From Hexactinellida sp. DTS-2022 (lineage: Eukaryota > Porifera > Hexactinellida), in contig JAPNXP010000001.1 of the NCBI GenBank assembly GCA_028753945.1, positions 10,902,501 through 10,966,500 of the forward strand: 64,000 nt of DNA, read 5' to 3'. The first letter of the stretch is position 1, and every line of letters starts with the position of its first letter. Shown piece after piece: positions 847 to 42,879 of the stretch. The position numbers were made by a program, and so were the translations under genes. Below the pieces are notes generated by a model that had not been told where the DNA came from, searched no databases, and saw only the letters and a list, made by a program, of their open reading frames with translations.

Positions 847-1156
847 CAGTGGTTCTTAACCGGGGGGAAATTTCGGGAATATAAGGGGGAAATCAATTTC
901 GACAAAATTAATAATAATATTAAAACTTAAATAAAATAATACAAACCATATATTTTATCTACATAGGTCATAACAAAAGTACTGATCACCAATCATATTG
1001 ATGTTGTGAACTATTGTTTGCTAAATTTTCAACCAGCAGAAAGCTAATAAATTGTATGTTTGAGGCTACTTTTTTCCTTATACAAATGATGGTGGAAATC
1101 GGGTAGAGTGAACAGGCCAAAAGGGGAAATGAAATTAAAAAGGTTAAGAACCCCTG
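847..1156. mobile_element. hAT-type MITE inserted in the Helitron helicase
   Basis: The terminal inverted repeats are CAGTGGTTCTTAACC on the left and GGTTAAGAACCCCTG on the right. They are flanked by a perfect 8-bp target duplication, CTGTAATG, at 839-846 and 1157-1164. An 8-bp duplication and CAG..CTG ends are hAT hallmarks. The Helitron frame breaks off at one side and resumes at the other, so this insertion is younger than the Helitron copy. It carries no coding region. Confidence 0.92.
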
Positions 1157-4100
1157 CTGTAATGGAATCACCTGGTACTACAAATTTGTTATCTATGTGA
1201 ATCATTTGATTGTCATCCTCAGGTTCAGTGCCTTCTCCCACTCTTAATAAAAAGTTGGAAAATTTACTGACCTCGAGGGCATCTTGTGACAATAATGTTT
1301 GGAGACGCATATTTATAGTTAGCTTCATTACTTTAACATAACGCCAGAGATATGACCTGTTCAGACAGGAAGAGACCACTTCGGCTCTCGGCCCATGCTT
1401 AACCACAGGGGGTATCTGACGGAAGTCGCCTCCAAAAACCATTACTTTGCCACCAAAGGGGAGATCACAGGAACAAATATCCCTCAAACTGCGATCAACA
1501 CACTCAGCTACATGCTTATTTGACATGCACGCTTCATCCCATACCAAAAGTTTTGTACGCTTAATTAGCTGTGCCAAAGCACTCTGTTTCGAAATGTTAC
1601 ATACAGATAACTCATTGATATCAATGGGAACTTTCAACCTAGAGTGGACAGTCCGCCCTCCTGCGAGGAGGAGAGCGGCTATGCCACTGCTAGCTAACCC
1701 AAGGGCAATTTGACTCTTCGAGCGAACTTGAGCCAAAAGTATATTATAAAGGAATGTCTTCCCTGTGCCCCCGGGACCATCTACAAAGAATATTTTGGGA
1801 TACTGCTCAGAATCATTTACCGCTGCTATTATAGAGGTAAATACACTAAGCTGATCAGAATTAAGAGAAGGAACATCATGAACAACTATTGCTAGCTGCT
1901 CATCAACGTTATAATCTAATTCTCTCTGAATAATAAGAGCCTCCTCGTATGGACTTCTGGTATGAATGGGTATTGGCATCCCTGGGAAATCTGCTAGAGA
2001 TTTACCCTGGTTTTGCAAATGCTTATCAATATCCACTAATACAGCATTAAGTATGTGCTCATCGACCTCGATATCGGGCACAGATTTTCTAGCACGATGC
2101 AGAAAGTCATCAGAAAAAGCAAATTTATACTTTTCCCAAAGTGCCGCAGGATTACATGGTTCGTTATAGAGTAGTATGGTAACGAATAGATGACGTAACT
2201 GTGGAGGCATATGCCACGAAGCAGCCATATCCAAACACATATCATATTCGCTATCATCTTCCAGCAATCCGCGGTGGCATGCGGCCTCCTTGAAGGTACC
2301 ACAGACAGTTCCGTCAGGAAGAGTAGGAATAGCCTCAAAGCTGGTACAGCCAGTGACGTGATTCAACAGAATTCTCAAGTAGAACCGCTCTCCCTCAGTT
2401 GGATGAGCAGAAAACACTCGACCAACCATCTTACCGTGCCCCTTAACTCGCGGCTTCCATTCTCGCTTAGTTTTATCCCATACAAAATATTCAGGAAAAT
2501 CTAAGTAAGAGATTGCCCGAGCAGATGGAAATTTTTGGTTAGCTAGAAACCATCCTGTTAAAGTGGAATGTTTTTCTACACTTAACACATCCTCAATATC
2601 AGCGTCATCTCGAAAAACGACAGATTGCTGATTTTCAAGATGAAGAGCTAACCTCATCACATGTGGCAGATTAGCATGGAGATCGTAAGAAAATATTCTA
2701 TAGCAAGCCTCGCATGCAGATATATACCGAGCTTCCACATAATTCGATACTTCGTCTACCTTCCGAGGTTTATCAGTGTGATCACCCGACTGGAACTCGA
2801 TAATGGCTCGATCATGGCCTTTATAGACATACTTATAGAGGTACTTAACTGCTCTAACTGTGCTACAAATTTCAACGTTAATGTGAGCATTATACTTTAA
2901 CAAAAGGTATGGGTTATATGGTACAACCCAGCGATTGTCAAGCTTCATACCTGCTACCTCTACAGTACGGGAGTTATCTCTGCGCCGATACAATGGGTAA
3001 CCATCCTTAGTGGTGGTTATAACGTCAGAGAATTTCTTTGGGTATTGTTTAGCACATGAACCATTGCGCATACAAACAGCAGCCTTCTTTGCAGTACCAC
3101 ATGGACCATGTAACATACAGCGCTTCACAATCTGATGCAATCTCGGATTGAGATCAGGATCAGGAAGTTCAGCACATACAATCTTATCGTAATCAGAAGG
3201 GTCACGTGGTTTGCAATCATCAGCTAAGATCACCAATATATGAGCATGCGGAAGACCACGCTTCTGAAATTCAATTGTGTAGACGTGTGCAATGGGTTTA
3301 CCAAGAACATGTTTCTTAAGAATGTCATCTAGTAATTCCCTTAGCTTTTGTTTAAAAACACGAACAATTAAATCGGGACGATCAGTAGCCTTCTGGTTAG
3401 GCAAAAGACTACTCGTTATTTCGTCCCAAAGCGGATTACATGTAAATGTAATGAATAAATCTGGCTTACCAAATTTCCGCACTATTGTCATTGCGTCTTG
3501 ATAAAGTTGGAACATTTGCCTCGGAGAGTTGGTATAGCTCGAAGGTAGAATAATATTCCGTCCCAACTCAGTCGCATTGGTGTCTCCTTTGGCACAGCAT
3601 CAGCCAATCCACTATACAGATCCACTCGGATCTTCTGCTGATTGGTCTTAATGTAGTTGAGCCGCTGCTGCCCCATCTTAGCGTACATATCAACGATGTA
3701 CTGGTGGAACAGCCTTCCCGAGAGGTGCAGGTGGTTAAGCCCGCTCCTGAGCATCAGGCGATAGCTATAGAACTCCAGTGCAGTAACATCGCGTCTACCT
3801 CTGCTATGAGGGATACCAAGGTGCCAGCCATCATTTCCTAGGGGAAATAGTAAGACATAATGCAGCGAGTCATACGCACAGTGTGTTTCTGTGATCCTTT
3901 TGAGACCACCACTGTGGGCATGCAACACAATATCCCTGTTTGCAACTCCCTCAGAGTAACCTCCACCAGGGAACAGCACTGCAATTTCAGGAGCAGAAGG
4001 AGCATTGTATCGGCGTGGATCTGGGCAACCATCAGCTCTGATGATCAGCCTGATGTCCACTCCTCCTTGTGCTCGCATTTGATCAACTGCGTGCTTGAAG

Positions 4101-4740
4101 TGTGAGACATAGGGGTTAACCTCATGTAGCATTTGCTGCAAGGCCTTTAACTCAGGAAGTTTGGCCTCGCCTAGATGTCTCTGACGGTTTTCCACTTCAG
4201 CCTCTGCAGTACCGTCGTGTATGTAAATCTGGGCAAAAACTGGTGCCTCATCACTATTTGGAAGCAAACTTCCAATGTAATGGTGCACAACGCCCTGAAT
4301 ACGGAAGGTATATACACCACGTCTAGCATTAGCAAGCTCTTTGTCGATATTTGCTCCGAGGGAGCAAAACGCAAGGCTTGAGTTGTATGCTCGTATGTGG
4401 CTCCTGAAGTACTTGCCTCTGCTATCAGCAGCTGTGAGCAGATGGTCTAACAACTCAGGAAGTTTATCTAAGGAGGGAAGAACAACCTTGCCCTCTCCGC
4501 AACAGAGGGAAAACTTTGCACATGCTTTTGTACTTGTGGAAAGCTTTTCACTCTCCCAAAACTTAGCATCACAAATTGAACAATTATAGGACATACTACC
4601 TAATGAATGTTCATCAACCAAACCATCACTAACCTCAGAAGAGATTTGTGATCTGGCTAAATTGAGGTACCTCTTAGATTGGAGAGTCTTACTCGTCTCA
4701 TACAACAGAGTTCGGGACTTCAAACGAACAATTCGCTCAT

Positions 4741-5150
4741 TTTCAGACTCACTTTGTCTGAGGGTCTCCTGGTGTATGCGCTGGTACTCCAGGCGATCAG
4801 CTGACTGAGCCTCAGACTCACTTTGTCTGAGGGTCTCCTGGTGTATGCGCTGGTACTCCAGGCGATCAGCTGACTGAGCCTCAGACTCACTTTGTCTGAG
4901 GGTCTCCTGGTGTATGCGCTTGTACTCCAGGCGATCAGCTGACTGAGCCTCAGACTCACTTTGTCTGAGGGTCTCCTGGTTATACGCTGGTATTCCGGGC
5001 GATCAGCTGATTGAGCCTCAGACTCACTTTGTCTGAGGGTCTCCTGGTGTTTTCGCTTGTACTCCAAGCGCTCAGCTGATTCAGCCTCAGACTCGTTTTG
5101 TCTGAGGGCCTCCTGGTGTTTTCGCTTGCACTCTAAGCGCATAGCAGTCT
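4741..5150 (-). repeat. 69-bp tandem repeat coding the Helitron N-terminus
   Basis: About six units spaced 69 bp apart, with anchors at 4751, 4820, 4889, 4958, 5026 and 5095. Each codes a 23-residue charged unit around RLEYxRxHQETLRQSESEA. The 68-bp spacing between 4958 and 5026 exposes the one-base deletion that throws the frame. Charged arginine/glutamate-rich N-termini are common in Helitron proteins; near-identical repetition suggests recent unit turnover. Confidence 0.85.
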
Positions 5151-17968: not shown

Positions 17969-19245
17969 CTACTGTATTTCTCGGTCAATTATCCGATTCG
18001 GGCAACCAATTATCCTATTCGAGCAATCAACAATTATAGTGATATATTTGATATAATAGTGATAATGAATACAGTTAATTAATATAGGATAAAGTGATTT
18101 ATTGGATATATATATTGGAATAATGTAGCTGCTAGAGATTTTCAAGGCGTATTGCTCTCGAACTGTTGCTGTCAATACATGGTAGAACGAATTCAGGCAA
18201 GTTGCTGGAGTAATTTGAGCCAAAGCATTTGGGCATAATTGCAATAGTTTATCTCTCCTTGCACTTACCATAGTTTGGCCCTCAATTGGTATAATTGGTC
18301 CTTGAGCGCCGAGAGTTCGTTTTATATAGGATTTTAGACTTTGGAAGCACAACTCAATCGGATTCAACTCGCAACTGTATGGAGGGAGGCGTTTCAATTC
18401 GATGTGTGAAGGGATAGAAGCTTCAAGTCTATTTTCAATCCCACGGTGACAAGGAGCGTTGTCAAGTACGATAAATGCCGTGTCAACTGAGCTACTTGGT
18501 TCCAATGCCAAACCAAACGAGAGATGGAATAATTCACTTATAAATTGATCAAAATGTGTTTGTTTAGCACCTCCGAAAAGGATTTTGAATGGACCAGTCC
18601 AACACCTGGACAGATAGCACATATCAGAGTGACATGGGGAGTTCGTTGATTGTCAGCAACCCTTCGAGCTGGCAATCCTTGAATTGATCGACCACGATTC
18701 CGAGCGGTATATAAGCCAAATCCACACTCGTCAACGTAACAAAATCTTGCTCCTATTTCATGCTGTTCTTGCAACCATAGAGCATGAGTTCTTCTACAAT
18801 CTTTGTTTGCGGGTGAATTACGTACACTCGGAAGTAATTCAAGTTTTTTTACTGTAATTAAGCATCCTTCAAGACACCGAGCGATTGTAGATATCGAAAC
18901 AGTTATCCCTCGTTCGAGAAGTAGTTTATTTCTCATCTCGCCAAGAGTGATATCGGGACGGGCTTCAATGGAAATTAAGAGAAGACTTTTCGAATCCTCG
19001 TCCAACTTTTTTCCTCTTGGACCACCGCGAAGTTTGGTAGAATATTGTCTGGTGCTACAAATTCTGTAAGCGGTATCCTTCTTAACGCCAAACAATCTGG
19101 TCATCTGTTTATAGGTTACTCCCGACTCGTGGGCATCGATAAGTCTTTGCCGTAATTCATTTGAAATTGCTCTCCCACCTCGTGAAATAGCAACTGTAGA
19201 TGATGTGGCAGAGTGTTGTCCTGCATCGTATGAACTGGAAGCCAT
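17969..19245 (-). pseudogene. Tc1/mariner-like transposase with one frameshift
   Basis: DDE transposase of the IS630-Tc1-mariner group. From the ATG at 19245 the first frame codes an N-terminal helix-turn-helix (SNELRQRLIDAHESGVTYKQ, then FGVKKDTAYRI), a second HTH (DITLGEMRNKLL), and the first catalytic Asp in CYVDECGFGL. After a frameshift near 18590 it continues with the second Asp in IVLDNAPCHRG and the Glu in LPPYSCELNPIE. I count 35 residues between the second D and E, against the usual 34 in Tc1. The TAG stop is the last three bases of the element (17971-17969), so the reading frame runs through the whole terminal repeat. Apart from the single frameshift the gene is open, so the insertion is probably young. 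Confidence 0.9.
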
Positions 19246-19432
19246 AATTTATGATGAATATTTGAATATTTAGGAATATATTTATTTCGTATTACTTTGT
19301 TTTATACTAATCAACCCAGTATCCTAAATAGATAAACCAATGAAAATCAAAAGTAATTCCGATCGGATAATTGGTTGACCCAATCGGATAATTGGTTGCC
19401 CGAATCGGATAATTGACCGAGAAATACAGTAG
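17969..19432 (-). mobile_element. Tc1/mariner-like transposon, nearly complete
   Basis: The element starts CTACTGTATTTCTCGGTCAA at 17969 and ends with the inverse at 19432, each flanked by a TA dinucleotide (17967-17968 and 19433-19434), the Tc1/mariner target duplication. The inverted ends match for about 50 bp and include two direct copies of ATTATCCGATTCG/CCAATTATCC. The inside is filled by a single transposase gene on the minus strand. Confidence 0.93.
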
Positions 19433-34697: not shown

Positions 34698-36090
34698 GTG
34701 TTTTCAGCTCCTGTAACTCCCTTACTAAATATAAAGAAACGGAGAGTTCTTGTTGGCTCTAAAAAGCGTCCTAATAAATTCGGTGGACACATAAAGCGCG
34801 AAAAGGTGGCCTTAGCTCATGAGTACACTCCCGTTCCTACAAATAGCAGCCAAACAAGTGTAACGGAGTCTCTTGATGTTATTGAGCTATCCGATAAGGT
34901 CCCCATAATTTATGTGGAGACCCAAAACGAGACTATACCATTTTGGATAGCCAGGAACATCAAGAAACTCCGTTATGTGAAAGTTAACCTAAGCTTACAA
35001 CTGCCCAATTAATAATCTCCAAAGGCATTTTACAAAATATTCCACTTGAGGAAATGGAGATTTTTGTGGACAGAAAATCTTTATTGCAACATGAATCGGG
35101 ACAATGTAAAACAGAAGCGCAGAAATAAACTGTTAGAGAGCTATATGATCTACATCGGCCATCCACGCTTAGGGATTTGAAAATGGAGAGATAATTGGGG
35201 TGAGAATGAAGATTTATTGGAGATATCTAATAAAATACATCTCTACCTGATAACATCATTGATAAAATAACATCTTTATATGGTTTTGTTGTAAAGTAGC
35301 ATAAATATTGTGAGAAGGGTGCTGATTCATTTTGCATGTATGAGAAGGCCATAGCTTTTGGAGATACAGTTCCAAACATCCCATGTGCATCGGTTTAGCT
35401 TGTAGGGATCGTGTTTTAGATATTTTAGCCCCATATTTTTCGCTGTCATTTTTGGAAAAGTTTCAGGGTGGTAGCACCTCAAATCTGAATGAGAACCTTC
35501 ATGGGATGATTTGGAATTATATTAGTAAAACTAAGCCGACAGAATTGAGTTTGATAAATTTATGATGTAGTTTAGCTACTATTCGTTTCAACAAAGGGCT
35601 AGCTGGCATTAAAATACAGTTGAAACCGGATATTTTTAACACCGGATATTTTTAACATTCGGATATTTTTAACAAATTTTCGTGAAAAGAATGTGTTAAA
35701 AATATCCGGTTTCAACTGTATACTAAATAGTTTAGGATTAAACAACTTACTATATTTCAATAGGTAAATTAGTAAAATAGTTTGATAATGAGAGAATTTT
35801 AAATAGTGTAAGATGCGTAAATAATACTAAGCGTAGATGGTCCCTGAAACAGGCAAAGCGCTCAGGGAAGCGTGGAGCTACTTATAAGAGCGGGGCCTAT
35901 TCCCAAGCAACAAGCGTGCCACCGAATATGGACAGCAATTGTAAAATATGTGGAGGGAGTGAAGATAGTGGAATATTAACAAGGCTGGTAGTAGTATTAG
36001 AAGAGATGTTAGTGTATGTATGGACTGGTTGTGCTGTGATATATGTAACGGTTGGCACCATAATGCTTAAGGAATATAGATGTTTTAGCT
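34698..36090 (+). pseudogene. Mutator-like transposase with a PHD finger, heavily damaged
   Basis: An open plus-strand piece (34698-35012, about 105 residues, basic, with IKKRRVLVGSKKRPNKFGGH) is followed by damaged sequence. Blocks of an animal Mutator-like transposase then appear: CEKGADSFCMYEKAIAFGD (about 35305-35370), GGSTSNLNENLHGMIWNYISK (about 35467-35530) and the partner FNKGLAG (about 35590). A TA-flanked MITE interrupts at 35617-35718. A PHD finger follows: SNCKICGG near 35932, then, after a frameshift, WLCCDICNGWHHNA near 36031-36075. A matching relic lies at 42880-43490. The C-x-(T/S)-(Q/S)-N-x-NE-x-LH-xx-(I/L)W block is characteristic of this transposase group. Confidence 0.7.
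35617..35718. mobile_element. TA-flanked MITE, CAGTTGAAACCGGATATTTT
   Basis: Ends CAGTTGAAACCGGATATTTT and AAAATATCCGGTTTCAACTG are perfectly inverted with flanking TA; the inside repeats GGATATTTTTAACA three times. It interrupts the transposase relic. Noncoding. Confidence 0.88.
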
Positions 36091-36241
36091 GTTTGTGTTG
36101 AAGATGATTTGTGGATATACCCCGCATGTAACTGTTCTTAGTCGTTTTAAATTTCTATCTTGTATAATTTGTAAAAGTAGATATTTTGTTATATTGTTTA
36201 AAAATACTCTCAATCATTTTTGTAATACTTGTAATAATTTT

Positions 36242-36429
36242 ATGATTGTGAAGTTAGCAGTGAAAAATTCAAAAAACCATGTGCAACTTAACACCCTATA
36301 ACTTAGTCATGCATCAACCGATTGAGGTGCCATTTGGACTCAGATAATTTCAGCCTAGAAGGTTGCTGTGATTTTAACTAGAACTCTCCTTAACACCTCT
36401 ACACCAGACAGTGACATAGCAAATATTAT
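36242..36429. repeat. Left terminal inverted repeat unit
   Basis: Contains AAGTTAGCAGTGAAAAA, CCATGTGCAACTTAACACCC, GGTGCCATTTGGACTCAGAT and CCAGACAGTGACATAGCAAA, all present in inverse order at the right end. Confidence 0.92.
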
Positions 36430-36889
36430 CTATCTTTTATGCATCATCGCACTTGTCTTTGGAACAGTAGATCTGGATTTGTATGTACCTTTTCTGGAGA
36501 AAAAGCATATTATGTATTATTCGAGTGTAGGTACTAATCTAGTTAATACAACTTTCAAACTTGGTTAAAAAGAATTAGTACGTACTAAGTTGAAGTACGT
36601 ATTAACCGAGTTCTATGTAATGTCTAACTTCCTGCTTCATACTCATTTTGTTTTTCATTGTATGTTTCTAATTGGTAAACTTAATGTCATCAACACTTAC
36701 TTGTACCAATCTATGGATTCTGTTGATGTTAGATTATTTTGGCTATATAGCTATATAACTATATAATGATTATATTGCTACATATACTTTTCAAACGACT
36801 TTGTATTCGAATGGTAATCTATTTTTATTTGATAATTATCTTTAATTTCAATCGTTTTATAACCTTCTCTTGAAAACTTGGCAAGGAGG

Positions 36890-39800
36890 ATGGATTATTT
36901 TGAAAATTGGATCTGTTACCTTTCAAAAGCAAAATTTGATATAATTTTCTCTTCCAAATCTACATTTTACTTCCTTTTGCTCATTCAATGTGGTGATATT
37001 GAGCTAAATCCAGGACCTATTACATCAGGTGAGTGTATAATTTAATTGTAGTGTATCAATATTATCCAATTTATAATATGTATATTTTAGTTGATGAAAG
37101 GATTTCTCAAAAAGATCTGGTTTCTAAGATTTTAGATGCCTTATTTTTATTAGGAGTAAACGTGTCTGATATTGGAACAAATCGGCTATACAATTTTAAT
37201 TGGCGTCTCTCTCATTCACTTTGGGGGAAATTATCAAAATCTATATTTGGTAGCAATCGTGCAGCCTATAGAGCCAAGATAATGAATATGTGGCGTAGTA
37301 ATCAATCAAAAATTATAAAAATTCAGCAAAGTTACCCAGTTTCCTGTTCTCATTGTGAATCTGTACTTACCTTACCAATTAGTATACATGTCCACAATTT
37401 TCCTCCTTCATTTTTCTTAACCTATCCAGGAAAATTATTCAAACAGGCAAACAAGATAATACGTTCCAATGATGTCAAATATATTAATAATACTAATTCA
37501 GTTGATCCTATCTCCACACTTCCTCGTAACCAACAATGTCTTGACTTTATGCCCAATTTCACCCATAATTTTACCCCACTTGAGGATTATACCTCTATTG
37601 ATAGTGTCTCCTCAAAGAACTATGCCACAGTCCAAAACGCGTCCAACACGGAATCTAAGATCTCTTTTGAATTTTCATTAACTCAAGACGAATGGAGCCT
37701 TATATCTCCACATTAACAGTGAAAATAGATTAAGTAAGGAATGGACAAATGTTTTCAGTAAAAAGATATCAGTTGTGCATCCATATTGTGTCATTCAATA
37801 TCTCTATCACCGTATTAACAAGAGTACTGCAACTCGAAACTTTGCTTATCTTGTAGTGGAAGCAATTTGTAAGTTTAAGAATTGTATCAGGCTTAAAATT
37901 TTCATACGCGTTATTCCTCATCTGGATGTCAGAAATATCTCTGTTGAAGTCAATGTTACGGGAACTATTTCTGAACAACATTTTAATAATAAAATCTCGC
38001 ATTCTCGAAAATTATTTGGACTGGATAGGGAAAAGCTTGCTGAGAAATTGGCCCAAAATTCAACAGTAATATTTATTATGATCAATTTGCTTGTTCTAAA
38101 AGCTTAGAAGTCGCTAAGCATGGGAATCTTAACTTTTTAAAATCTCAAGAGCTTCTTAGAAAAGTCAAATCTGAACATGAATCAAAGTGCAGATTTAGCG
38201 ACGACATGTGGCAAGATATTATCATTACTAAAAAGGCTTATGAAAGCAATATTAAAGGTAATGTTATAGATGGTTATATTCAAAGTGTTTCTCAATGCCC
38301 TGTTGTAGTTCATATGCACAGCGAGGAACAGATACTTCTCATTAGAAAACTACAAGCTAATAAATTGATGTTGCATTTAGATGCTACTGGCTCCGTTGTA
38401 AGAAAAATTGACAAATTCCATAAAAAGATTCTGTATTATGCCTTAGTAGTAAGACATCCGGAAGCCCAAATTAGTCCATTACCACTTGCAGAGATGCTAA
38501 GTAGTGAACACACTAACGTTGAAATTACTCATTTCCTCAACAAATGGTATTATAATGTGAAAAGGATTCTAAATAATGAAACTACCTTCACCCATGTTGA
38601 AGTTGATTTTAGTTGGCCCATGTTACACAGCGTCTGTAATTGCTTTTATGCACAAACTCTAGATATGTATTTAAACGCTTGTTGGGAGAGATTATATCCA
38701 GATGCGATTTCTACTTATCGTATAAAGACTGTGCTACATATATGTTCTGCACATATTATGCACCGCTTTAGCTACAAGATCGATCGAAATTAAATAAGAG
38801 ACTTAATGAAATGGATCAACTATTTACTTCCTTATGCATGCTATGCCTATCACGGGTAAGGTATTTTGAGATTGAACAATATGTCGAAAAACTTGAGAGT
38901 GCAATAGGTCCAAATTATGAAGATTACGTACTAGAAATAGAATATTTAACAGAGATTGACGAAGAACTGCCCAACGAAATGGGGGATAGTGCTACCTATA
39001 GAAAAAAGTCGCCTTTTGGGAAGCATTTTGATTCTATACCAAAAAAATGCTACAGTTATGTTCAAAAATTAGAAAGTCAGCAAAGTAATACAATATTTGG
39101 TGAAAATTGTGAATTATATTTACCTTGTTTACCTGAGTTTCTAGCTACCCACTATATGCCAATAAGCCCTTTGTGGAGCGGTTTGATTGTTGGCCCAGCA
39201 TTATTTCCTGAAAAGGTCAAAGTTACACTTACTAACTCCATAGCAGAAAATTGGATGAGGATTGTCAAAAAGAATATTTTAAAAGACGAATCAAAGTTAA
39301 GACCAGGGGATTTTATAAGAAAAATGTACGAAGGAATATCTGGCAGAATCAAAGCTTTTGACTTTGCGTTTCTCCCAATAAGTAGCAAAGTCTTGAGAAA
39401 AACAAATAGAAAAAGAAAATGGATTGATACAGAGGTTGAAGAAATTTGGGAGAGGCGCGCAAAAGCAAGCGTAGTTATTTTAAATCAAAGAAAATGTCGA
39501 TTACGACAGGTTCAAGTAAAATTAATCCTAGAGTTAAAAAGATGCCTAATTCTCGTAAAAATATTGCAAAGGGGGAAGCGATAATTACAAACCAATTATT
39601 AGAGGAAATTACTTCAACTAGTAAAAGTCCATACTCTAGAACGAAAGATGGTCATATAAATGAGTTATCAAGTGAAGAGAGTATCTTGGAAGTGATAGAA
39701 GTAAAATATTTCTATCATGGACAATTTATTCCTGTAAATGCTGTATGGCAACGTCAAAAATGCAAGGAATTTATGTTTACATTTGTAGGAGGGGTGGTTT

Positions 39801-40342
39801 ATGAAAACGAAGCTGATGACAAGACAGTTGAAATTCGAAAAGTAGCTCCATCGAAGGAAAAGCGGATTTCACCAGATGGGAATTGTCTCTTCAGTTCACT
39901 CTCTTATGTTATAGCTGGAACCGATTCTTATCATAAAGAAATACGCGAGTTATTAATTCAAAATATGACAAATAAATATCGGGAAATATGCACTAATTAC
40001 TGCAGTGCACATTATGATTTACTTCCTGAAAATCATTGTAAATCAATAGAAGATTACCTCAAAGTCAGCATGATGGATCGTGTTGGCTCTTGGGGGACGG
40101 ATTTAGAATTATTCCTAGCAGCTCAAATTCTTAGAACTGATATATTTGTTTATAAAGATGAAGATCATGTTTGGAACAAATTTTCAGCATATGGATTCAA
40201 TGATAAACGTGATATCACACGAATTAACAGAAAAAGAGTTTATTTACGCCTTTATTTCAGTCACTTTCAACCTGTGTTAAAAGTGAACAAAGTGGAAAAA
40301 GTATTAAACAATAACTATGTACAGGATATTGAATCACTATAA
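36890..40342 (+). pseudogene. 2A-like peptide / Mutator-like DDE transposase / OTU protease polyprotein gene
   Basis: Exon 1 (36890-37028) starts MDYFENW and contains FLLLIQCGDIELNPGP, a full 2A-like ribosome-skipping motif, at residues 28-43. A 62-bp intron (GTGAGT..TTTTAG, 37029-37090, phase 1) follows. Exon 2 is broken by frameshifts near 37700, 38070, 38800 and 39445. It codes a Cys-rich DNA-binding-like region (ICKFKNC near 37870), then the DDE core: Asp in LMLHLDATGSVV (38380), Asp in HVEVDFSWPML (38605) and Glu in NSIAENWMRIVKK (39246). The chain continues in a shifted frame into an OTU cysteine protease with catalytic Cys in SPDGNCLFS (39884), a WGTDLE block, and His in YFSHFQPVL (40262). 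The OTU frame has no start of its own beyond an internal ATG at the frameshift, so transposase and protease were probably one chain. Two host exons in the window stay open for more than 1000 codons, so the frameshifts are likely real. Confidence 0.85.
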
Positions 40343-40680
40343 CTGGGTTCCGCAAACTAGGTTTTTCAGGCCGCATGCGGCCTGAAACAACCTTATGTGT
40401 GGCCTGATAGCTCAATGGCTTTCAGGCCACACATAAGGACAAATCCACCCTTCTCAAGTTCTCATTAAATATTATTGTAATTACTTTTATCATAACTGTA
40501 TAACCTTTTTACTAGAATCCTTTGTGCACTTTTTGTATAGTAATTAGTATAGTTCTAGTATTATAACAACATAATAGTTTTGTTATAAATTTCCAAAAAT
40601 TTATCGATATTGTTTGCGGCCTGAGGAAAATTTTGTTAAGATTATGTGGCCTGATATAAATGAAAGTTTGCGGAACCCTG
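40343..40680. mobile_element. hAT-type MITE inserted at the OTU stop codon
   Basis: Ends CTGGGTTCCGCAAACT and AGTTTGCGGAACCCTG are flanked by a perfect 8-bp duplication CACTATAA (40335-40342 and 40681-40688). The left duplication ends with the TAA stop of the OTU frame. Inside is a perfect 24-bp palindrome at 40364-40387 (TTTCAGGCCGCA and its inverse) and several GGCCTGA motifs. Confidence 0.93.
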
Positions 40681-40852
40681 CACTATAACAAAGGTGAAGT
40701 AAATAATCTAGGCAAAAGGAATACTCTTTGGTAGAAAGGGACAATCTTTGGTAATTAGAACAATTAGGCCATAACATATATTAGAACAAATTCATAATAA
40801 ATCTATTATCATTTATGATGAGTAGGTAGAGGGGAAAATTAAGGTTACAAAG

Positions 40853-41548
40853 TCTGGTGTAGAGGTGTTAGGGAGAGTTCTAGTTAAAATGACAGAAACC
40901 TCCTAGGCTGAAATTATCTGAGTCCAAATGGCACCTCAATTGGATGATGTATGACTAAGTTATAGGGTGTTAAGTTGCACATGGTTTTCAGAAACCATTT
41001 TTTTTGTCAAAATATAGCAATATTTGCTATGTCACTGTCTGGTGTAGAGGTGTTAGGGAGAGTTCTAGTTAAAATGACAGAAACCTCCTAGGCTGAAATC
41101 ATCTGAGTCCAAATGGCACCTCAATCGGTTGATGCATGACTAAGTTATAGGCATGGGCGTAGGGAGGGGGGGGGCAGTTGCCCCCCCCCTAGCTCAGCCA
41201 TTTTCACTCCCAGACCCCCTTTAAGTCGTACGCTACGCTCGCTGGTTGTACATTTGCCCCCCCCCCCCTAGATTTTGGCCTGGCTACGCCCTTGGTTATA
41301 GGGTGTTAAGTTGCACATGGTTTTCAGAAACCATTTTTCTTGTCAAAGTATAGCAATATTTGCTATGTCACTGTCTGGTGTAGAGGTGTTAGGGAGAGTT
41401 CTAGTTAAAATGACAGAAACCTGCTAGGCTGAAATAATCTGAGTCCAAATGGCACCTCAATCGGATGATGCATGACTAAGTTATAGCCTTATAGGGTGTT
41501 AAGTTGCACACGGTTTTTTGTTTTTTTCACTGCTAACTTCACAATCAT
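40853..41548. repeat. Right terminal repeat, three tandem 185-bp units
   Basis: Units start with TCTGGTGTAGAGGTGTTAGG at 40853, 41038 and 41374. The first spacing is 185 bp. The second is 336 bp, which is again 185 once the 143-bp MITE and its 8-bp duplication are subtracted. Only the outermost unit carries the terminal CACTGCTAACTTCACAATCAT. The units are inverse to the single left unit. Confidence 0.92.
41152..41294. mobile_element. hAT-type MITE, GGGCGTAG family, with G/C runs
   Basis: Ends CATGGGCGTAGGG and GGCTACGCCCTTG are flanked by an 8-bp duplication GTTATAGG (41144-41151 and 41295-41302). It interrupts the second right-end unit of the foldback element. Inside are long G and C runs. 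Related fragments lie near 8096, 12605 and 23755. Confidence 0.9.
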
Positions 41549-42879
41549 AATAATTTTATACTTTTTTCTATGGTTTTCTACTTATATAAATATAAATTTA
41601 TTTATAGATACAAATTTTATTATTAATAATGTTTGCTCAATAAATTATCAGTGTCTTTACAATATACTCTTCAGTGCTAAGGGATAACTATTATATACAC
41701 AAGAGGGGATGTGTTTCAGTGTTTGGCTATTGATAAATGTTACTTTGTATCTTTCAATTAGAATTAGCATGAAGAGGACTGTCGTCTATTTCCAAACATG
41801 TGAGGATTGCGTATTTTTACCAACTACAATAATATTTTACAAAAATGACAATTTTCAATGTGCAATTTCACTATATTACAACCCTATCTAATAATAGTCT
41901 GGAATTTACCAAATATATAATTGTTTTCGCAAATTAATGGGTGTAGAATGTAAAATTGACTTTTCAGAAAAAAATGTTTAAAAAATATAAATTTAGAAAA
42001 CTTGGCGGTGGAGGTGGAAGAGGCGGAGGCACTTGCTATATAAAATTCCTTGTAAGGTTAGAAATATTTATGGATACAATGTATTTTGCCCCCAATTGTA
42101 AGTAGATACAAGTTTCTATACAACAATGTTGATTTCCCAAAAAATTTATATTGTTTTTTCAAAAGCCATTACCAAAAATTTATATTGTTTTTTCAAAAGC
42201 CATTACCCTGAAATTTATATTGTTTTTTCTAAAGCCATTACCTCAAAAGTATTATTTTCGGACTTGTGTAGGATGCATTTAGTCAATATAGTACCTAGAA
42301 CAAAAGTCAACGGTTTCGATTGCTCTCATTTAGGGACATCATATGATTGTACTTATTCGTTCAATTTATATTACTTCAAGGGTTTTAATAAATATACAAA
42401 TAGTCACTTGAAAGTTTGTCACTAGCTATAAATACAGGAAGTTAAACAAATTATTCGCTCCAAACCAATATGTCATAAATTATTGATTTGTAAATTTTTG
42501 AATCCTAATTACACGAGTTACTTTTTTACTAGAATCATATAGATCTTGAAGATCTTGTAAACTTTTCCGAGGACCCCCACAACCACGATGACCAAAGGCG
42601 CGCCGAGGAGTCTGGGCCAGGCAGACTAGACTCCTGGAAATTATGAAACTAATAATAAGGTAATTACCACTCAATTTGTTTACTAATTTAATTGAGCTTC
42701 TTTAATTAAGCGTTTTTCTTTTAGAGTAAATTTAGACATAATTAATTAAATCAAATAGATTTAGACGAACTCTTCAAAAATAATGGATAACAGCGGTTAG
42801 AAAGGAAGAATGTCTTGGACACGTCAGAAGCGTGTCAAAAAACACCTACGCAAAAAGTCCCAAATCTTCAAAGGACTAC
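41549..42879. other. AT-rich DNA with a 33-bp tandem repeat
   Basis: At about 42142-42243 three units of AATTTATATTGTTTTTTCAAAAGCCATTACC repeat. A more GC-balanced patch at about 42575-42640 opens a minus-strand frame (AQTPRRAFGHRGCGG) that I cannot assign. Nothing else is supported. Confidence 0.45.

Follow-up and report, generated by a model that had tools for sequence, protein, structure and literature searches.

Proteases that cut ubiquitin or SUMO recur on unrelated transposons, and have been described on Ginger1, on some Mutator elements and on Helitrons (PMC2836005). Ginger1 transposases carry C-terminal OTU or Ulp1 domains, one of them together with a PHD finger, and Mutator elements that encode a ubiquitin-like-protein protease of the Ulp1 type are reported from plants, hydra and lancelet (PMC2836005). 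Among the Mutator-like elements (MULEs), MuDR-6_HM of Hydra, in Mutator group 14, is entered with one open reading frame that includes an 'Ovarian Tumour Gene' (Dupeyron et al. 2019, Table 1, PMC6446971). In the same source Rehavkus serves as the MULE outgroup, and Rehavkus-1_TC and Rehavkus-1_HR have a minisatellite before the 3' terminal inverted repeat; Rehavkus is further described as having a 9-bp target duplication and inverted ends built of tandem units (PMC10218199). Here we analyse an element at positions 36242-41548 of a 64,000-nucleotide stretch of the sponge Hexactinellida sp. DTS-2022 (the window; contig JAPNXP010000001.1, here C1). The element is a genuine insertion of a cut-and-paste DNA transposon. 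It is probably a Mutator/Rehavkus-like transposon that works in the way proposed below. Its one gene is read as encoding first a leader, closed in several subfamilies by a 2A motif, then an N-terminal region, a Cys/His-rich stretch that is probably a zinc finger, the DDE core and, at the C-terminus, the OTU domain.

The first 60 bp of the element and the reverse complement of its last 60 bp are identical at 57 of 60 positions, and AATAATTTT flanks it on both sides as a perfect 9-bp duplication, which bears out both the inverted ends and the duplication reported in the first-pass annotation of this DNA. The genome searched (112 Mb in 18 contigs) also contains an empty site, C1:11164108-11165011, in which sequences 95% and 96% identical to the left and right flanks, respectively, are joined with a single AATAATTTT. 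Because this paralogue reads through the target with one copy of the 9-mer, the boundaries of the element and its duplication are taken as real. An empty site lying off the 9-bp repeats would, according to the annotation, have refuted its proposal, and the site found coincides with them. It was also considered that AT-rich DNA might yield a 9-bp repeat by chance, an explanation dropped because the empty site contradicts it. Paralogues of the flanks on contigs C4 and C12 are likewise uninterrupted, but they have diverged at the target itself.

The annotation had described a complete element with one gene of about 3.4 kb. The order of the parts holds (Table 1), but a single open frame does not, as at least four frame changes break up the window gene, which runs from a piece at 37033-37716 through the four pieces that Table 1 lists from 37682-38107 to 39440-40342. 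For this reason the window copy, as it is, is unable to make the protein, and it is complete in its ends rather than in its coding capacity. The DDE-type motifs were found at the places claimed, the two D codons being 75 residues apart, and a CxxH lies between the second D and the E, so that the motifs come in the order D, D, CxxH, E. DDE catalysis is predicted. The OTU fold could also be substantiated, given that the last piece matches Pfam PF02338 (E=7.6e-11) and has its Cys in DGNC and its His in SHFQP.

Table 1. Features of the element and its target site (window coordinates).
Feature	Coordinates	Strand	Basis or detail
Left target-site duplication AATAATTTT, 9 bp	36233..36241	.	Single copy at empty site
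Whole element, 5307 bp, two nested insertions included	36242..41548	+	Ends, duplication, empty site
5' terminal inverted repeat, one ~185-bp unit	36242..36427	+	Self-comparison of element
Predicted exon 1, 139 nt, leader peptide ending in 2A motif	36890..37028	+	Donor GT at 37029 (CAG/GTGAGT, slash at the junction); same layout in family B
2A/StopGo motif GDIELNPGP	36992..37018	+	Motif
Predicted exon 2, transposase N-terminal region	37091..37716	+	Acceptor AG ends at 37090
Transposase piece in shifted frame, corresponding to conserved Cys/His cluster region of relatives	37682..38107	+	Alignment of relatives, correspondence by eye
Transposase catalytic piece	38044..38793	+	First D codon 38380, second D codon 38605, CxxH 38743-38754
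Transposase piece, motif E codon 39246	38772..39584	+	
OTU-like cysteine protease domain	39440..40342	+	Cys codon 39884, His codon 40262
Nested hAT-like non-autonomous insertion, 338 bp	40343..40680	.	Inverted ends CAGGGTTCCGCAAACT (left end CTGGG), 8-bp duplication CACTATAA
3' terminal inverted repeat, ~3 tandem units (40774, 40959, 41295) plus terminal 60 bp	40774..41548	-	
Nested 143-bp insertion	41152..41294	.	Inverted ends CAxGGGCGTAG, 8-bp duplication GTTATAGG
Right target-site duplication AATAATTTT, 9 bp	41549..41557	.	Empty-site comparison

The single frame that the window copy lacks is found in open relatives of three families, in which transposase motifs and a C-terminal OTU domain stand together in frames of 1255 codons (family A, L060 and L061), 1260 codons (family B, L062) and 1349 codons (family C, L063); no blastn similarity to the window element was found for families A and C. 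In the genome as a whole, the 150 transposase matches listed merged into 146 loci and the OTU matches listed into 123 loci, and the counts that follow are lower bounds. At least 86 of the 146 listed transposase loci are followed, in the same orientation and at a distance of no more than 4 kb, by an OTU domain (it lies upstream in 1 and on the opposite strand in 2), and at least 86 of the 123 listed OTU loci have a transposase upstream. The possibility that OTU is a separate unrelated gene in other copies, which according to the annotation would have refuted its proposal, was examined, and OTU was found to travel with the transposase; an unrelated gene nested in the element was dropped as an explanation, because the co-occurrence and the single frame contradict it.

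Both domains look to be under selective constraint, as judged from the ratio of nonsynonymous to synonymous substitution rates (dN/dS). Among pairs of more than 50% identity (37 for OTU and 22 for the transposase), dS was measurable, with values up to 3.4, in 9 and 3 pairs, respectively, the remainder being saturated save for one near-identical pair per domain. The OTU pairs gave 0.10, 0.10, 0.11, 0.11, 0.13, 0.14, 0.22, 0.23 and 0.50 (the last over 189 sites), and the transposase pairs 0.06, 0.20 and 0.22. Because dN/dS is low in both, the constraint on OTU appears about as strict as that on the transposase, within the limits set by the saturation of dS. These values bear on the view that OTU is a captured passenger with no role in transposition, as might be expected of Mutator-type elements, which are known to capture pieces of host genes (PMC6446971), and in line with the 60 of 146 transposase loci that have no OTU match among the matches listed. 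We regard a passenger as very improbable, given that the OTU-bearing sequences form one clade, that young families have an uninterrupted frame and that dN/dS is low.

That clade was recovered in an unrooted tree of 29 sequences, for which two protein searches had supplied 20 proteins. It comprises 15 sequences with 100/100 support, of which 10 have the OTU motif and five (L031, P0002, P0004, P0005 and P0006) do not, most of the latter being short or cut. A second clade of 10 sequences, also supported at 100/100, carries Ulp1 and/or PHD: Ulp1 was matched by Pfam in P0008, P0012 (at the cut-off), P0013 and P0015, PHD was matched below the cut-off in P0008, P0012, P0013, P0014 and P0015, and P0011 and P0016 have only a Ulp1-like motif. 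Neither domain was seen in P0017, P0019 and P0020, the Pfam scan having covered P0020 of these. Elsewhere in the tree, P0010 has Ulp1 on a very long branch, P0018 an internal PHD above the cut-off, and P0007 a C-terminal USP-like Cys box recognised by eye only and without a Pfam match. No PHD match was obtained by Pfam in the OTU-bearing L060, L062, L063, P0001 and P0003. The type of protease thus tracks the transposase clade, which is consistent, in an unrooted tree, with one gain of OTU here and another module elsewhere. With regard to the catalytic motifs of the relatives, the E is present in L022, L023, P0012 and P0020 and was not found in P0004, P0006, P0009 and P0019, whose sequences seem to be cut short or to have diverged in this region. 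In P0009, P0013, P0014 and P0016 the first motif Asp is replaced by Asn; all four have the second D, and three of them the E; judged by their sequences, these may possibly be domesticated proteins. A scan of viral contigs with the family alignment gave no relative (76 pattern matches, none confirmed). In a viral structure library, the only match to the transposase model with E<0.001 was O92526 of Bracoviriform inaniti (544 residues, 8.1e-10), a model-based likeness that perhaps reflects a related transposon in wasp proviral DNA.

The first-pass annotation had regarded OTU as the C-terminal part of a polyprotein, an idea that would agree with a protease acting in cis on the transposase polyprotein rather than on ubiquitin, all the more as OTU follows a low-confidence linker in the model (stretches 596-617 and 622-686, predicted local distance difference test score, pLDDT, <50). 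Nevertheless, the structures nearest to the OTU domain are deubiquitinases and nairovirus OTUs, several of them solved with ubiquitin or ISG15, and the presence of Ulp1 in the same slot of the relatives fits the handling of ubiquitin or SUMO better than self-processing. Self-processing, for which the 2A motif was the only internal processing site looked for, is consequently rated as unlikely, and a deconjugating activity of the OTU domain is preferred.

As to the place of the family among known elements, the Mutator-like lineage proposed in the annotation agrees with the anatomy, since the 9-bp duplication lies within the 8-11 bp of Mutator elements and the terminal inverted repeats are long, but a canonical MULE was not recognised by sequence. 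The MULE profile PF10551 had no match at E<=1 in the five element pieces or in three open proteins (L060, L062 and L063); the same genome contains at least 150 matches to PF10551 above the cut-off, many of them with long open frames. An hhalign comparison of the family (28 rows) with 5 host MULE frames found no similarity (probability 0.1), although the 5-row profile is shallow and makes this a weak test. The modelled transposase core has a DDE RNase-H fold whose nearest structures are the P element, ISCth4 and Hermes, with ISCth4 and the P element tied in the ranking and Hermes and integrases behind; all three nearest structures have only 10-13% identity to the core and differ in their flanking domains. 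Because the P element and ISCth4, an IS256-family transposase, are tied, the fold picks no single superfamily. An ordinary MULE of the Phantom or MuDR type that has diverged beyond the reach of Pfam would account for the 9-bp duplications, the long inverted ends, the CxxH between the second D and the E and the fold match to ISCth4, but would have to escape PF10551 in all five pieces and three open proteins and also the hhalign comparison, weak as the latter is; we consider it a rather improbable explanation.

The anatomy is most like that of Rehavkus, the sister group of Mutator, with which the family shares a 9-bp duplication and tandem units in or before the inverted ends. PHD is a stated Rehavkus feature, and the PHD matches obtained here lie in relatives outside the OTU clade, where P0018 alone exceeds the cut-off. 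The OTU clade differs from Rehavkus in having OTU, in giving no PHD match and in often having a 2A leader, and the likeness concerns anatomy and description alone. Because no PHD was matched in the OTU clade and the comparison is one of descriptions, the family has not been filed as Rehavkus. FB/NOF foldback elements are characterised by the NOF protein and by repeated ends made of short units; the units here are of 173-333 bp. No match at E<=1 to the integrase (rve) was obtained in the element pieces and the three open proteins. Target duplications of Ginger elements are of about 4 bp. The transposase of Ginger1 resembles the Gypsy integrase, and in this respect the family described here, with no integrase match, is different. 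MuDR-6_HM is placed among the MULEs in a paper whose table gives neither a terminal inverted repeat nor a duplication for it (PMC6446971), and the comparison with it is one of descriptions. The same applies to the Ulp1-bearing Mutator elements, whose protease fold differs from that of OTU. The annotation's statement that no element with such an architecture had been described must then be narrowed, as MuDR-6_HM and Ginger1 are precedents for OTU on a transposase (PMC6446971, PMC2836005); a closer description of an OTU-bearing Mutator element was not found in the literature searched, which was one library. The element is solidly a well-delimited variant, and OTU on a Mutator-type element has itself precedents.

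The 2A peptide noted in the annotation is present as the motif GDIELNPGP at the close of predicted exon 1, and ribosome skipping is predicted from it. Of 19 transposase loci whose orientation could be settled (L035 was dropped), 10 have NPGP or a near form, and diverged subfamilies have GDIEINPGP, GDIEVNPGP, RDIELNPGP and GDVEVNPGP. The published motif is D(V/I)ExNPGP (PMC12846837), to which the window motif and several of the diverged subfamilies conform. Ahead of the motif, a number of leaders are by eye rich in hydrophobic residues, in which they resemble the sea urchin NLR leaders described below (PMC4981915). In the stretch examined the motif was not found in families A and C, and family B has an altered form, GGIEINPGP, with the exon layout of the window; L030 has a stop inside the motif, and upstream of it the leader is interrupted by stops in several copies. 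Its absence from families A and C and its alteration in B would agree with a match that arose by chance, or with a fossil, and that causes no skipping. Nevertheless, of the 10 loci with the exon-2 motif in reach, 8 have NPGP or a near form at a distance of 208-258 bp upstream, L021 and L034 being the two without it, and the 2A motif keeps its place at the end of exon 1, and its fit to the published form (PMC12846837), in diverged subfamilies. A chance or fossil match is for these reasons held to be improbable, though it retains some weight beside a functional 2A leader.

Sequences of the 2A type have been reported in viruses, non-LTR (long terminal repeat) retrotransposons and sea urchin NLR proteins (PMC12846837, PMC4981915). 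The sea urchin NLR leaders serve both as signal sequence and as 2A and, as here, are N-terminal and end in the 2A motif (PMC4981915), but they precede immune-receptor-like proteins, whereas the predicted 2A of this family precedes a transposase. A DNA transposon bearing 2A was not found in the literature searched, again one library.

In the working considered probable, the transposase would be freed from its leader by ribosome skipping at NPG/P. It would then bind the units of the inverted ends, possibly through its Cys/His cluster, and move the element by 9-bp staggered cuts, with DDE catalysis and strand transfer as predicted. The OTU domain may act on the transposase, or on chromatin or repair factors at the site, by taking off ubiquitin or a protein of the ubiquitin-like kind, which would protect the transposase or ease repair. 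A similar general role in transposition has been proposed for the OTU and Ulp1 domains in the Ginger paper, in which such a role is a suggestion (PMC2836005); no test of it was found in the literature consulted. A broader reading, which we put forward tentatively and hold to be doubtful, is that these elements form a separate transposase superfamily on a par with MULE and Rehavkus. A ubiquitin/SUMO-deconjugating module would then be standard and swapped between clades (OTU; Ulp1 with PHD; the USP-like box of P0007) and a StopGo leader would gate release of the transposase in part of the OTU clade. If true, this would be a DNA transposon in control of how it is translated as well as of its ubiquitin state. 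A 2A site ahead of a DNA transposase would bring translational recoding into the control of transposition, and the recent copies with both domains in one frame, together with a sister clade with another protease, offer a natural series on the role of the enzyme.

Past mobility is demonstrated by the empty site, the 9-bp duplications and young multi-copy families. In the terminus family of the window, five of seven end pairs have exact 9-bp duplications (window, L013, L014, L016/L017 and L019); of the other two, L015 matches at 6 of 9 positions and L010 has both ends in flanks without a matching duplication. Within the sequence examined, L009, L011 and L018 have the left end only and L012 has no end. 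The pair in L019 is a non-autonomous copy of 320 bp (501-820 of the locus, C1:14746761-14747080) that has both of its ends and lies between perfect 9-bp repeats, TAATTTGAG. For family A, the 40 best-scoring termini were listed, and the 30 with a terminal identity of >=99% form 15 facing pairs spaced 5.8-11.7 kb apart, of which 13 have exact 9-bp duplications, L061 has one of 8 bp (by eye) and one, on C2, has none (2/9 match). All but one of the 15 pairs enclose one transposase and one OTU match, the exception being a 5.85-kb copy on C12 with a transposase match only. The frame at the transposase is of 1254-1255 codons and takes in OTU as well in 8 of the copies, and is of 678-1211 codons in the other 7, so that about half of them look broken. 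Two further facing pairs of family-A-type ends, 96-98% identical, were listed, one of 5.9 kb on C14 and one of 2.2 kb on C13. The terminal 100 bp of family A copies are nearly identical, yet the copies are 5.8-11.7 kb long, a spread that may reflect array expansion or nested insertions.

The termini vary in their number of units. L014, which has the terminus of the window, has larger arrays than the window element, with 185-bp units repeated 2.6 times at the 5' end and 4.2 times at the 3' end, and the tandem units are of 333 bp (x1.9) in family A and 173 bp (x3) in family C. The inverted repeat is of about 185 bp in the window, 338 bp at 99% identity in family A and at least 553 bp in family B, where the outer end lies beyond the stretch examined; in family C no convincing inverted ends were found within the 6.2 kb examined. 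The 3' array of the window element is split by the 143-bp insertion, and the 338-bp insertion, presumably hAT-like by its ends and the length of its duplication, lies directly 3' of the OTU stop codon. In comparisons of L013, L014 and L015 with the window, the terminal units are ~90-97% identical and the coding parts ~71-78% in the longer matches. On sequence grounds the ends, like a satellite, seem to have undergone homogenisation or exchange between families.

The flanks of the insertion belong to a repeat with 29 genome matches, the window included. Of the matches to this repeat (window 35700-36241 and 41549-41940), 20 of 29 lie on contig C11, which makes up ~14% of the genome, a bias that is perhaps a sign of an unusual chromosome. 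Within the repeat, positions 35781-36101 have by eye the look of a broken PHD finger (CKICGG ... CCDICNGWHH, in two frames), without a Pfam match. The neighbouring genes in the window encode a DEAD-box helicase with SPRY, a SPEF2-like protein and a kinesin, a set that marks the DNA as eukaryotic and probably animal. Two further transposons lie on the minus strand: a Tc1/mariner-like transposase at 17969-19248, in two frames, with DDE_3 and a Sleeping Beauty helix-turn-helix match below the cut-off, and a Helitron at 1044-5002, with Helitron_like_N and a PIF1 helicase in two overlapping frames and a tandem peptide repeat near its start.

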